This document shows, piece by piece, positions 13,712 through 41,599 of a DNA stretch of 64,000 nt (position 1 is its first letter; each line of letters starts with the position of its first letter). Source of the DNA: Rossellomorea orangium (lineage in GTDB: Bacteria; Bacillota; Bacilli; Bacillales; Bacillaceae_B); the NCBI RefSeq assembly GCF_019334305.1, contig NZ_JAHWGH010000012.1, forward strand, positions 248,001 to 312,000. Reading direction: 5' to 3'. A program made the position numbers and the translations under genes. The notes under the pieces were generated by a model. It was not told the DNA's origin. It saw nothing but the letters and a program-made list of their open reading frames with translations, and searched no databases.

Positions 13712-13920
13712 GTTGTTTTGACTCTTTACCAATGACTGTGCCTATAATTAGGATTCAATAATCAGGAAATGCGCTGTAAATAAATAATAGAAGAGGAGAG
13801 GGGACTTCTCCACTTGAAGATAGCGTTTGGCAATCTTTATCTCCAACGACCAGTGTAGATCTTCTTAGAAGAAGTTGTGGTTATAATAGATTTTGAAGTA
13901 GTGAAAAATATACCCCGATA

Positions 13921-14046
13921 GTTGATTGGAGCGGAAGGATGCTCGACTCCTGCGGGAAAAGCTGGACAGGTGAGACCCCGCAGGCGCAGCCGAGGAGGCT
14001 CACCGCCAGCCCCGCGGAAAGCGAGCATCCTGGAGCGGAAATCAAC
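13921..14046. repeat. Palindromic intergenic element, copy R1
   Basis: Imperfect palindrome of about 126 nt with ends GTTGATT / AATCAAC, then arms GGATGCTCG / CGAGCATCC, inner pairing GCTGG / CCAGC and a core GGTGAG / CTCACC around GCAGCCGAGGAGG. It is far more GC-rich than its surroundings. Related copies occur at 24878, 36871 (inverted, diverged) and 37067. It encodes no believable protein. Elements of this look are common in Bacillaceae intergenic DNA as far as I recall; I do not know an accepted name. Confidence 0.85.
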
Positions 14047-14241
14047 CAGCACTCTCTCCGTTTTCAACAGCTACCATCCTAATCCCAAACGAGATTTTAA
14101 AGAGAAAATGAAATTGTCTTTCCCTGCGTAAAAACTCTTTGTATGGAAACCCTAAAAATGATAAAATACTAATAGACAGACAATAAAAACAATTTTTATT
14201 ATTTAAAATTGTAATCGTTTACATACTCGGAGGTGCTTCTT

Positions 14242-14756: not shown

Positions 14757-14928
14757 ATGCATGTAAATGATAATTATAAAAGACAAAGTGTATCCTATAA
14801 AAGAAAACTAATAAGTGTTAAATCTTCTTAAATGATGGTAACCCTGAAGATTTATATTATAATGAAAGTACAATTACATAAACGTTTGGATGTTGGGGTT
14901 AATTTTCTTTTGTATGGAGGCACATGAT

Positions 14929-15648
14929 ATGAGCAAAAAAATCTTGGTAGTGGATGATGAACAATCTATCGCAACACTCTTAAAGTATAATCTTGAGCAA
15001 TCAGGTTATTCGGTTACAACGGTCCATGATGGTGAAGAAGGAAGGGATGCAGCGCTTGAACAGTCCCCGGACCTGATCATCCTTGACCTGATGCTTCCTT
15101 CTATGGACGGAGTAGAGGTATGCAAGGATTTACGACAGCGAAAGATCAATATTCCCATCCTGATGTTGACGGCCAAGGATGATGAATTCGACAAGGTTCT
15201 GGGCTTGGAGCTTGGTGCGGATGATTATATGACAAAGCCGTTCAGCCCACGTGAAGTGGTGGCAAGGGTGAAAGCGATCCTCAGACGAAGTCAGGCAATC
15301 CAGGAAGCGGCGGATACAGTTGTTCAAGAACCGACGGATTACAAGGAAGTCGGGGAACTAAAGGTGTATCCGGAGCAATATGAAGCATATTTCCAAGGTG
15401 AACTGCTGGAACTTACACCGAAGGAATTCGAGCTCCTCTTATACTTAACGGATAATAAAGGCAGAGTGTTGACGAGAGATCAGCTCTTAAGTGCGGTTTG
15501 GAACTATGATTTCGCCGGTGATACGAGAATTGTGGACGTTCACATCAGCCACTTACGGGAAAAAATTGAATCAAATACGAAGAAACCGACCTACATTAAG
15601 ACCATTCGCGGCCTCGGATATAAATTGGAGGAGCCAAAAACTCGATGA
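14929..15648 (+). CDS. phoP: PhoP phosphate-regulon response regulator
   Basis: OmpR-type response regulator of 239 residues, partner of PhoR encoded next to it. The receiver domain has the acidic pocket VDDEQ, phosphoacceptor Asp in LIILDLMLPSMDG (about residue 53), the switch Thr in LMLTAKDD and Lys in DYMTKPFSPRE. The C-terminal winged helix (about 140-238) carries LTPKEFELLLYL and the recognition region DTRIVDVHISHLREKIE. The ATG at 14929 is 8 nt after TGGAGG; upstream in-frame ATGs lie in or before that site. A TATAAT at 14858-14863 without a good -35 box suggests an activated promoter. Confidence 0.93.
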   Translation: MSKKILVVDDEQSIATLLKYNLEQSGYSVTTVHDGEEGRDAALEQSPDLIILDLMLPSMDGVEVCKDLRQRKINIPILMLTAKDDEFDKVLGLELGADDYMTKPFSPREVVARVKAILRRSQAIQEAADTVVQEPTDYKEVGELKVYPEQYEAYFQGELLELTPKEFELLLYLTDNKGRVLTRDQLLSAVWNYDFAGDTRIVDVHISHLREKIESNTKKPTYIKTIRGLGYKLEEPKTR

Positions 15649-17414
15649 CCAAATTTAGAACAAAGCTCCTATTTGCTTTAATTACCTTGATCATCGCTGT
15701 TTTGATAGGGCTTGGGCTGCTTTTGGGACAAATTTTCAAGAACTTTTACTTAGATACATTCAACTCAAGGATCGAAAAAGAGGCGAGGCTTCTCGCAAGC
15801 TCCATTGAAGAGAACGGAACACCGAAAGAAATCAATCCGGACATGATCCAGGAATTGAGTGACATATTGGATGTTAGGATCACGATCCTTGATCAAGCAG
15901 GCAATGTGGTTCATGATACAGAAGCGTTGGAATCGTTTGTCGGCCCGCAGCAAGAGAGAATCGTAAAGGAAATCCATAAGAATTGGGATGTTAAGCATAA
16001 GCATAAAAAGCTGGTCACGTCAGAAAACGAATTTAGGTTTTATTGGTATCCGTTAAAGGATGCCAATGATCAGATGAAGGGACTCCTCGTCATGAGTGCA
16101 GAGGTGGATGCCCTTGAGAAAGGGACCCAGCAAATCTGGTTTGTTTTATCCATTTCCCTGGGACTCGCTTTGGTCCTCATCATAATCCTGGGATCCAGGA
16201 TTACAGTGAGGTATACTAAACCCATCGAGTCTGCCACCAATGTTGCCATTGAGCTGGCCAAAGGGAATTACCGGGCCAGGACATACGAAGACCGGTTGGA
16301 TGAAACGAGTATGCTAAGTACTTCCATCAATATTCTGGCAAGAAATCTTCAAGAGATGGTGAATGCCCAGGATATGCAGCAGAATCGGTTAACGACCCTC
16401 ATCGAAAACATGGGAAGCGCCCTACTTCTAATCGATCATCGGGGTTTTGTCGTATTGACCAACAAGACGTTCAGGGATTTCTTTAATCTGAAGGAAAGTC
16501 AATTGAAGAAAGTACGATATCATGAGGTCATTCACTATCAGGAAGTGAATAAGCTCGTGGAGGAAATCTTCATGACGGAAGAACGACTACGTAAACAGAT
16601 CCTCCTTCCTCATAAGCTTGATCGAAAGCATTATGAAGTGTACGGTGCCCCGATCATCGGGAACAATGACGAATGGAAAGGGATTGTCGTTGTATTTCAT
16701 GACATAACCGAACTTAAAAAGCTCGAACAGATGCGTAAAGACTTCGTGGCGAATGTTTCACACGAACTGAAAACGCCGATCACTTCGATCAAAGGATTCT
16801 CTGAAACGTTGTTGGACGGAGCGATGAATGATCCAGAAACATTGAAGTCATTTTTAGACATCATCTTGAAAGAAAGTGACAGGCTGCAATCCCTCATCAA
16901 GGATCTGCTGGAACTGTCCAAGATTGAGAAACAGGGATTTGAGCTGGCCGTGGAGGAAGTGGAAGTAGCAGGGTTGATTGAAGATGTGATGCCTATTTTA
17001 AAAGAAAAGGCGAAGCCGAAAGAGATATCGCTTCAATCCGATTTCGAGTCAAGGGGACTGGCTGAAGTGGATTCATATCGTTTGAAGCAGGTCTTCATCA
17101 ACTTGATCAGCAATGCCATTGTATATACGCCTAAAGGCGGGAATGTGTGGATCACGCTTCAGGAAGATCAAGACAAAGTATACGTAAAAGTGAAGGATGA
17201 TGGCATGGGCATCAGTCCTGAAGAGTTGCCCCGTATCTTTGAACGGTTTTATCGGGTCGATAAAGCGAGAAGCCGTAACTCCGGTGGGACCGGTCTTGGG
17301 CTTGCCATTGTCAAACATATCATTGAAGCTCATGAAGGAGATATAGAAGTGGAAAGTGAATTGAATCAAGGAACGATTTTCACTGTCTCGCTGAATAAGC
17401 AGTTTTTATCCTGA
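15645..17414 (+). CDS. phoR: PhoR phosphate-sensing histidine kinase
   Basis: Membrane histidine kinase of 589 residues. TM1 lies at about 8-30, an extracytoplasmic sensor at about 31-165, TM2 (SISLGLALVLIIILGSRITV) at about 167-188, then HAMP, a PAS domain (about 255-350), the H-box VSHELKTPITSIKGF near 372 and a HATPase domain with N, G1 (DDGMGIS), F and G2 (GGTGLGLAIVKH) boxes. It overlaps phoP by 4 nt (ATGA). In B. subtilis PhoPR governs the Pho regulon and teichoic/teichuronic acid synthesis. Downstream, instead of polA directly, lie a Pho-box array and hflKC. Confidence 0.93.
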   Translation: MTKFRTKLLFALITLIIAVLIGLGLLLGQIFKNFYLDTFNSRIEKEARLLASSIEENGTPKEINPDMIQELSDILDVRITILDQAGNVVHDTEALESFVGPQQERIVKEIHKNWDVKHKHKKLVTSENEFRFYWYPLKDANDQMKGLLVMSAEVDALEKGTQQIWFVLSISLGLALVLIIILGSRITVRYTKPIESATNVAIELAKGNYRARTYEDRLDETSMLSTSINILARNLQEMVNAQDMQQNRLTTLIENMGSALLLIDHRGFVVLTNKTFRDFFNLKESQLKKVRYHEVIHYQEVNKLVEEIFMTEERLRKQILLPHKLDRKHYEVYGAPIIGNNDEWKGIVVVFHDITELKKLEQMRKDFVANVSHELKTPITSIKGFSETLLDGAMNDPETLKSFLDIILKESDRLQSLIKDLLELSKIEKQGFELAVEEVEVAGLIEDVMPILKEKAKPKEISLQSDFESRGLAEVDSYRLKQVFINLISNAIVYTPKGGNVWITLQEDQDKVYVKVKDDGMGISPEELPRIFERFYRVDKARSRNSGGTGLGLAIVKHIIEAHEGDIEVESELNQGTIFTVSLNKQFLS

Positions 17415-17443: not shown

Positions 17444-17511
17444 TTTTCACTTATTTTACATTGTTTTTACAATAGCTTTAAATACAATTAACAATCAGGT
17501 GGTACGATACT
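17444..17511 (+). promoter_or_regulatory. PhoP box: five hexamers at 11-nt steps, with candidate -10
   Basis: Direct repeats TTTTCA (17444), TTTACA (17455), TTTACA (17466), TTTAAA (17477) and TTAACA (17488), each starting exactly 11 nt after the previous one. This is the layout of B. subtilis Pho boxes (TT(A/C/T)A(A/C)A-type hexamers with 5-nt gaps). A -10-like TACGAT (17503-17508) or GATACT (17506-17511) follows at the expected distance. Only a terminator, no gene, lies in the next 100 nt. Confidence 0.75.
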
Positions 17512-17540
17512 AAGTGAAACCCCTTCATCCAAGGTGTTAA

Positions 17541-17575
17541 GAAAAGGCGAGAACCAACCCCGTTCTCGTCTTTTC
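17541..17575 (+). terminator. Terminator-like hairpin downstream of the PhoP box
   Basis: Stem GAAAAG..CGAGAAC / GTTCTCG..CTTTTC with a CAACCCC loop and a T-rich tail. It lies 127-161 nt after the phoR stop but only 50-80 nt after the PhoP-box array, so it could end phoR messages, a short PhoP-driven RNA, or act as an attenuator before hflK. Confidence 0.75.
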
Positions 17576-17587
17576 GCTTTTTTATTT

Positions 17588-17602: not shown

Positions 17603-17716
17603 TTACCCGGTCCGAATTGTCACCTTCTTTTAATATTCTTGAAACCTTTTTACCTTATGTCCGTATATCTTAGTAGGCAGAAAATAAGATATAGAGATAG
17701 AAAAGGGAGGGTGCAT

Positions 17717-18679
17717 ATGAGTTTGAAGCGTGTTTATACTGTGGCAGGAATGGTGCTTGCAGCCATTATTTTAATTGTTGTACTTCTTACGTCCTGGTAT
17801 ACCGTTGATGAATCCGAGCAGGCACTTGTGTTGACGTTCGGGGAAGCAGGGGAGCCGATCGTTGAACCGGGACTTCATTTCAAGATGCCATGGCCGATGC
17901 AGTCGGTGGAGGTATTGTCCAAAGAAACCTTCAGTCTTCAATTTGGATATGAAGAAAAAGACGGGAAGATCAAAGACTTTCCGAAAGAAACCAAAATGAT
18001 TACGGGGGATGAGTACATCGTCCTCGCCGATCTCGTCGTACAATGGAAAATCACAGATCCGGAAAGCTATTTATTCAATTCGGATGACCCAAAGGAAATT
18101 CTGTATGATGCGACTTCTTCTTCATTAAGAAGCATCATTGGAAGTTCGTTGATCGATGATGCCTTGACGTCTGGAAAGGCAGAAATCGAAGCGGATGTCA
18201 GAGATTTGTTAACTGAGTTGATTGACGATTACGATATCGGTATTTCCATTCTTGCCGTGAAATTACAGGATGTTGAACTGCCAAACTCAGAAGTTCGTTC
18301 AGCCTTTACGGCGGTTACGGATGCCAGGGAAACGATGAACACGAAAATCAATGAAGCGAAGAAATATCGTAATCAGCGGACCAACGAAGCCCAAGGGGAA
18401 AAGGATGCGATCATTTCCAGGGCCAAAGGGGATAAAATCGCTCGTGTCGAGCAGGCGCGTGGGGACGTCGCCGTATTTGATAAATTGTACAACGAGTATA
18501 AATCCAATCCTGAAATCACCAGGAAACGACTTGTATTGGAAACCCTTGAAAATGTGTTGCCCAATGCAGAAATATACATCATGAAAGATAGTGGGGAAAC
18601 GCTGAAGTATTTCCCTATCAGACAGATGGAGAATCAGAATCCTCCGGCGAAGCAGGAAGGAAGTGAAGAGAATGAGTGA
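17717..18679 (+). CDS. hflK: HflK-like SPFH membrane protein
   Basis: Single-pass membrane protein of about 320 residues. The N-terminal transmembrane helix (VAGMVLAAIILIVVLLTSWY, about 7-28) is followed by an SPFH/band 7 domain starting TVDESEQALVLTFGEAG, and a charged coiled coil (about 230-275, NEAKKYRNQRTNEAQGEKDA). HflK and HflC form a complex that modulates FtsH protease in E. coli. The ATG at 17717 has GGGAGGGTG 6 nt upstream; upstream extensions lack a site. It overlaps hflC by 8 nt. B. subtilis lacks hflKC at this spot as far as I recall, so the pair looks inserted between phoR and polA. Confidence 0.85.
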   Translation: MSLKRVYTVAGMVLAAIILIVVLLTSWYTVDESEQALVLTFGEAGEPIVEPGLHFKMPWPMQSVEVLSKETFSLQFGYEEKDGKIKDFPKETKMITGDEYIVLADLVVQWKITDPESYLFNSDDPKEILYDATSSSLRSIIGSSLIDDALTSGKAEIEADVRDLLTELIDDYDIGISILAVKLQDVELPNSEVRSAFTAVTDARETMNTKINEAKKYRNQRTNEAQGEKDAIISRAKGDKIARVEQARGDVAVFDKLYNEYKSNPEITRKRLVLETLENVLPNAEIYIMKDSGETLKYFPIRQMENQNPPAKQEGSEENE

Positions 18680-24818: not shown

Positions 24819-24877
24819 AGATTGACTATTGCTGTAGAGTTATATGTTGTTTTAATTGGTCCCATCATGATATCAAT

Positions 24878-25005
24878 GGTTGAGTGTAGAGGAAGGTTGC
24901 TCGACTCCTGCGGGAAAAGTGGGACAGGTGAGACCCCACAGGCGCAGCCGAGGAGGCTCACCGCCCACCCCGCGGAAAGCGAGCAACCTGGAGCGGAACT
25001 CAACC
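24878..25005. repeat. Palindromic intergenic element, copy R2
   Basis: Same family and orientation as the element at 13921. Ends GGTTGAGT / ACTCAACC, arms GGTTGCTCG / CGAGCAACC, inner pairing GTGGG / CCCAC and the same GGTGAG / CTCACC core. Every difference from copy R1 in these helices is matched on the partner strand. Confidence 0.85.
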
Positions 25006-25134
25006 CAGCACATATCCCTACAAATTATTAAACGGGGTAATTTGAAAACACGTATGTTTCCAAACCACAAAAATATACATACAATAAGCACATTTGTCAG
25101 AATTATAAAACATTTAAAATCCGCAAAATACTTA

Positions 25135-25162
25135 TTAACTAATTCTCTAAATATGTTATACT
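25135..25162 (+). promoter_or_regulatory. gapB promoter overlapped by a CcpN operator
   Basis: TTAACT and TATACT with 16-nt spacing. The -10 box lies inside TATGTTATACT (25152-25162), a perfect match to the CcpN operator consensus TRTGHYATAYW known from B. subtilis gapB and pckA. A second, minus-strand near match (10 of 11) is at 25185-25195, just downstream. Confidence 0.75.
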
Positions 25163-25184
25163 ATTTTTAGCAAATAAACATATA

Positions 25185-34414: not shown

Positions 34415-34569
34415 GGTGAATTGAATACAGTTTGGTACAAGCAGGAGCTACCCGCTTCTCACCTGAATAACGCGTTAAAGCTGTTTACAGGTATGTGATT
34501 GACTATTAAAGCCATTTATATATGCTTAATAATCAGGTGCGGGTGTTTCGACACTCGCATCTTTTTTTG
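34415..34569 (+). ncRNA. L20 (ribosomal protein) leader with attenuator
   Basis: Leader between the infC promoter and infC. It ends in the intrinsic terminator TGCGGGTG / CACTCGCA followed by seven T (34537-34569), well before the infC start. In B. subtilis L20 binds the infC leader and promotes early termination; position, gene order and terminator fit this family. The upstream pairing is not drawn in detail here. Confidence 0.8.
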
Positions 34570-34648
34570 TGTGTTATACACAAAAAGGGAAGCGAGTACG
34601 TCAACCAAAGCCGTGTATTCTTTTAATAAACCTTGGAGGTGGCTAATT

Positions 34649-37652: not shown

Positions 37653-37797
37653 CACCATTACCTCCATAGGCATATTTCTTCCACTATAATTTACGGTTAA
37701 AACAGAAAAAGGTTTCATATTATTTAAAATTTGTTTAAAAATTTGTCATACTAAGAGTGAGCGACATAAATACAGACATCATAAGGGGAGAATGACG

Positions 37798-41325: not shown

Positions 41326-41354
41326 AATGCACATATAACTTTAAAAACGTTGAA

Positions 41355-41599
41355 AGAGGAAAGTAGCACATGACCTTCTTTAAGGGAGAGGATGCCTTTA
41401 GACTGCAAGCATCCTTAAGAAAACATGATGTGAACATTTCACCTCTCGAGTTGGCATCGGGACCATTCCATTATTGCGAATGTAAAGATGCACCGGCAAA
41501 GCCGTTATCCGAATGAAGTGAGTATGTCCACCCGTGGATATGCTTATAAGGGTGGTACCGCGATATAAACCTCGTCCCTTTTGGGGATGGGGTTTTTTT
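41355..41599 (+). ncRNA. T-box riboswitch of pheST
   Basis: tRNA-Phe-sensing leader. The T-box core AAGGGTGGTACCGCG lies at about 41548-41562, the specifier codon TTC (Phe) at 41438-41440, followed by A, and the terminator CCTCGTCCC / GGGGATGGGG with seven T at 41570-41599. Confidence 0.93.

Follow-up and report, generated by a model that had tools for sequence, protein, structure and literature searches.

A predicted PhoP-driven small RNA with a near-invariant C-rich seed downstream of phoPR in Rossellomorea orangium and its relatives

Few two-component systems of Gram-positive bacteria have been studied as thoroughly as PhoPR. FsrA and RoxS/RsaE are short, C-rich base-pairing sRNAs of Firmicutes, which have their own promoter and terminator and answer to a nutrient-stress regulator. 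A review from 2015 considers small non-coding RNAs in the regulation of phosphate only as participants that might emerge in the future (PMC4415409), and Mcr7 of Mycobacterium tuberculosis is a PhoP-dependent ncRNA (PMC4038636). In the open literature we found no PhoP- or PhoB-driven sRNA at the locus described here and none under Bacillus PhoP; B. subtilis transcriptome data may already include such a transcript without a name, and novelty is judged with this reserve. Moreover, none of the Rfam covariance models matched the RNA except at chance level (E 0.3-0.9).

We report that positions 17444-17582 of a 64,000-nt stretch of Rossellomorea orangium DNA (GCF_019334305.1, NZ_JAHWGH010000012.1, 248,001-312,000, forward strand; hereafter the window) are best explained as a unit for a PhoP-activated sRNA of approximately 65 nt in the phoPR 3' UTR, with a C-rich seed that probably pairs with G-rich ribosome-binding sites; judging from sequence comparison we put this reading at roughly 0.75. 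The Bacillus-type phosphate-starvation response would then probably have an RNA arm, seemingly undescribed. The wider proposition, that the Pho response, including that of the B. subtilis group, comprises an undescribed PhoP-driven phoPR 3'-UTR sRNA whose 12-nt seed is near-unchanged across most of the order and which silences several mRNAs under phosphate starvation, we regard as having slightly better than an even chance. The features of the locus are as follows.

14890-15648, plus strand: phoP open reading frame, identified by identity to the PhoP of relatives
15645-17414, plus strand: phoR, located by a match in 101 of 101 genomes (the R. orangium genome and 100 relatives)
17444-17493, plus strand: Pho box, five PhoP hexamers in 11-nt register (sequence, shuffles, kept in relatives)
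17500-17508, plus strand: extended -10, TGgTACGAT (sequence; the corresponding columns in 150 aligned relatives read TGnTAATAT)
17516-17582, plus strand: predicted small RNA (start placed from the -10, end from the terminator)
17519-17530, plus strand: C-rich near-invariant seed, ACCCCTTCATCC (150-sequence alignment)
17541-17585, plus strand: intrinsic terminator with 14-bp stem, loop CAACCCC and T tract (sequence, stem covariation)
17640-17665, plus strand: sigma-W-type promoter TGAAAC-N16-CGTA of hflKC, a separate unit (comparison of flanks)
17717-18679, plus strand: hflK, a neighbour outside the sRNA unit (open reading frame, flank comparison)

The true start of phoP is probably the ATG at 14929 (MSKKILVVDDEQ), and the terminator presumably also ends the phoPR mRNA. 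Elsewhere in the window Rfam matches an L20 leader (34433-34572) and a T-box leader (41341-41582). Spurious open reading frames on both strands at approximately 13837-14131 and 24873-25170 have near-identical translations (CSTPAGKxGQVRPxRRSRGGSPPxPRKAS), which indicates an interspersed intergenic repeat after mdh and after coaE.

The hexamers TTTTCA (17444), TTTACA (17455), TTTACA (17466), TTTAAA (17477) and TTAACA (17488) follow each other in an exact 11-nt register, and direct reading confirms the initial annotation in this respect. Four-hexamer sites were scored on both strands of the 64-kb window using the consensus TT(A/T/C)A(C/T)A and a cut-off of at least 22/24; the box after phoR was the single site found, with a score of 23/24 from 17455 and 28/30 over five hexamers, and 60 dinucleotide shuffles of the window gave zero sites reaching 22/24. 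Nine bases separate the last hexamer from the hexamer of the extended -10, i.e. the box stands immediately 5' of a sigma-A -10 with fixed geometry, as expected for a Pho promoter, and in 124 of approximately 149 flanks the seed follows the fourth hexamer at a distance of 30-31 nt. The initial annotation had also recognised a -10-like box, at about 17503-17511, and a short transcript of about 60 nt running from near 17518 to the terminator at 17541-17575; the -10 and the short, terminated transcript stand, but the box is better read as an extended -10 at 17500-17508, which would place the start at approximately 17515-17516, near GAAAACCCC, and gives a predicted RNA of approximately 65 nt. Promoters of the pstS type bound by PhoP in Bacillus likewise consist of tandem TT(A/T/C)A(C/T)A hexamers in 11-nt register 5' of a -10, and the pstS box in the R. 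orangium genome (TTTACA-TTTACA-TTAAAA-TTAACA) has the same layout. Unlike these promoters, however, the box after phoR drives no protein gene and lies within the 3' UTR of the operon that encodes the regulator. From the box and its geometry we infer PhoP binding and induction by phosphate limitation.

When 150 flanks were aligned on the seed they shared four hexamers, the extended -10 and GAAAACCCCUUCAUCCAAGGAG with a nearly invariant core. The near-invariant 5' segment of the RNA across relatives reads (A)ACCCCUUCAUCCAAGG, and the core columns are 96-100% identical in the 150 sequences, these columns being partly fixed by the search pattern. Since the columns of the pattern are identical by construction and the loci from an exact 22-nt search were fetched by the seed, the alignment is partly biased, and the counts from flanks chosen by phoR or phoP (see below) are the fair measure. 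The region 3' of the seed has little sequence conservation, yet it folds into a hairpin. In the window this hairpin (17541-17575) has 14 pairs and the loop CAACCCC and is followed by a T tract; among 23 sequences with the same hairpin type both sides have changed in 11 of the 14 pairs and 99.7% of the cells are paired. None of 500 shuffles was as good, and shifted registers did not come near. Other families have quite different hairpins at the same place, and a terminator-like hairpin was detected automatically in 133 of 152 seed-bearing flanks, the failures in the other 19 being partly due to strict thresholds. A covariance model from relatives scores the window RNA at 92 bits, the window sequence being one of the 23 used for building it. 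The 5' part of the RNA is single-stranded or weakly folded. The locus combines its own promoter and an intrinsic terminator with an unpaired conserved seed and a covarying structural part, as expected of base-pairing sRNAs, and the near-invariant single-stranded 5' end together with the covarying terminator is, at the sequence level, the signature of this class.

A short peptide encoded in the RNA (GTG AAA CCC CTT CAT CCA AGG TGT TAA in the window) is hardly credible. The window and much of the genus have this frame open, but an extra A before CCCC shifts it in most other genera, and with an A-run of 1 to 4 nt at this position reading frames are not preserved across the seed; it is the bases themselves that are conserved, at every codon position alike. 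The conserved 20 nt might also be a DNA operator over the transcription start, with the short RNA as a by-product, in agreement with the position of the segment at approximately +1 to +20 and with a weak inverted repeat in it (CCTT-N5-AAGG). This repeat is lost in several relatives, however, and twelve successive near-invariant bases suit a pairing seed better; an operator should also recur at other genes, whereas nearly all genomes have one copy of the motif, at phoR, other copies being near background within 3 mismatches. We consider an operator unlikely, whether for a second regulator or for PhoP acting as a roadblock that controls phoPR read-through.

The distribution of the predicted sRNA was assessed in 108 distinct phoR downstream flanks, selected by phoR or phoP rather than by the RNA. 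Within the genus, box and seed are present in 36 of 36 flanks; the 72 flanks from outside it comprise 47 with both, 13 with the box alone, 12 with neither and none with the seed alone. At the family level (47 sampled families of the order) the corresponding numbers are 26 with both, 10 with the box alone and 11 with neither by the thresholds used. The joint conservation of box, spacing, 5' segment and terminator in 26 of 47 families supports the suggestion in the initial annotation that PhoP drives a short RNA, and nearly all seed-bearing families have a terminator hairpin with compensating base changes. A pattern search allowing up to 3 mismatches matched 254 of 397 genomes of the order, and the reversed pattern, used as control, far fewer. 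An exact 22-nt form of the pattern was found in 79 stretches of the collection of genomes; among the matches listed, those checked adjoin the phoR 3' end and have a Pho box, apart from a single one at the edge of a contig that truncates phoR. Exact motifs occur in Rossellomorea, Metabacillus, Sutcliffiella, Cytobacillus, Peribacillus, Mesobacillus, Anoxybacillus and Ectobacillus, and also in Bacillus methanolicus. The unit is also present in a group with PhoP 83-98% identical to a B. subtilis PhoP sequence; we take this group to include the B. subtilis group on the basis of one genome, whose PhoP has 98% identity to that sequence. Class-wide covariance-model matches outside the order were rejected, those inspected being generic terminators without phoR.

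Families scored as seedless include seed variants, AACCCCCUUUAUCC (f40), ACCCCAUCAUCC (f22) and ACCCCUUCAUAUAGG (f37), and family f2 has AAACCCUUUCAUCCAAGG with a weaker Pho box. Families with a diverged RNA still have the Pho box and retain CCCCUU or CCCCCUU. In f3, f6, f26 and f42 (L263, L264, L273, L279) a longer transcript-like stretch, approximately 110-150 nt, comes after the Pho box that follows phoR, with ACGGTTTCATC or similar near its 5' end and, shortly before the terminator, ATCCCCTTG or a block like it; f46 and f28 have ACCCCCTT there. The unit in f3, f6, f26 and f42 is perhaps a second type of sRNA at the phoR locus. In one genus (g13 of family f13; L066, L261) the phoR-polA interval is without Pho box and RNA while sister genera keep both, and g13 is possibly a natural knock-out lineage.

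The initial annotation had offered two further explanations, which fared less well. In one of these the hairpin would attenuate Pho-dependent transcription into hflKC, and a Pho promoter and a terminator do both lie upstream of hflKC in the window. Among the flanks chosen by phoR or phoP, however, the unit precedes hflKC in 24 and polA in 23, including genomes without hflKC at this place; being equally common before both, it is the leader of neither gene, and its presence is not tied to hflKC downstream. Moreover, a separate sigma-W-type promoter for hflKC is situated 3' of the terminator; it was found in 98 of the 106 flanks in which hflKC follows and in none of the 68 in which polA does, which leaves attenuation unsupported. 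A conserved antiterminator was not seen, the 5' part of the RNA being single-stranded or weakly folded, and we regard attenuation as quite improbable. A second perfect match to the sigma-W-type promoter is present in the window at 37717 on the minus strand (TGAAACCTTTTTCTGTTTTAACCGTA).

In the other, the box would be an orphaned promoter, left at this site after the loss of a pst operon that had stood behind phoR. The order phoR, Pho box, pstS does exist, in two sampled families (G042, L265 and G046, L266) and in none of the other sampled families, so that pstS following phoPR, which the initial annotation had raised for relatives, is borne out in these two only. A common origin of the promoter is compatible with this order, and the promoter after phoR may be older than the RNA. 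On the other hand, the only PstS-type gene found in the R. orangium genome lies on a different contig and is preceded by a Pho box of its own, and promoter and downstream RNA are strongly conserved in dozens of genera with no sign of decay, unlike what a decaying promoter would leave behind. An orphaned promoter is thus very improbable.

Concerning targets of the predicted sRNA, the CCCCUU shared by the relatives is complementary to AAGGGG, which suggests, from sequence complementarity, ribosome-binding sites. Perfect complements of the seed (GGATGAAGGGG) occur at 12 places in the R. orangium genome, one of which is the sRNA locus itself on the opposite strand; the remaining places are mostly within genes (Asp-Glu-Gly codons) and none is at a clear ribosome-binding site. 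Seed matches together with start codons were compared in six and then three genomes, and these start-codon searches gave no target conserved beyond the expectation from natural Shine-Dalgarno sequences; the conserved matches at citB, parE, ydcC-like, sspF-like and med-like genes look like ordinary G-rich Shine-Dalgarno sites. The citB leader, compared in 28 genomes (L422-L449), carries in nearly the whole order a ribosome-binding site rich in G, mostly AGGGGG; genomes that lack the seed have such a site too, so it is not specific to the sRNA, and citB is a weak candidate. Pairing with 16S rRNA (GATGAAGGTTTTC) was discarded, the duplex energy being no better than for shuffled sRNAs.

We propose that phosphorylated PhoP would bind the tandem hexamers, which stand in for a -35 element, and recruit RNA polymerase to the extended -10, and that the transcript would begin near 17516 and stop at the hairpin as a non-coding RNA of approximately 65 nt. 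Its 5' end would expose GAAACCCCUUCAUCCAAGG, C-rich and unpaired, which most probably pairs with G-rich ribosome-binding sites of the AAGGGG type, the mRNAs concerned being those whose products should be reduced under phosphate shortage. If true, a conserved PhoP-driven RNA beside phoPR would account for repression effects that PhoP binding alone leaves unexplained.

With respect to known systems, Mcr7 is likewise non-coding and controlled by a regulator called PhoP, but it belongs to another phylum and another PhoPR system. Like FsrA and RoxS/RsaE, the predicted sRNA has a C-rich stretch that is exposed and would be expected to pair with G-rich ribosome-binding sites; it differs from them in sequence, regulator and locus, is shorter, and has a near-invariant seed of 12 nt at its 5' end.
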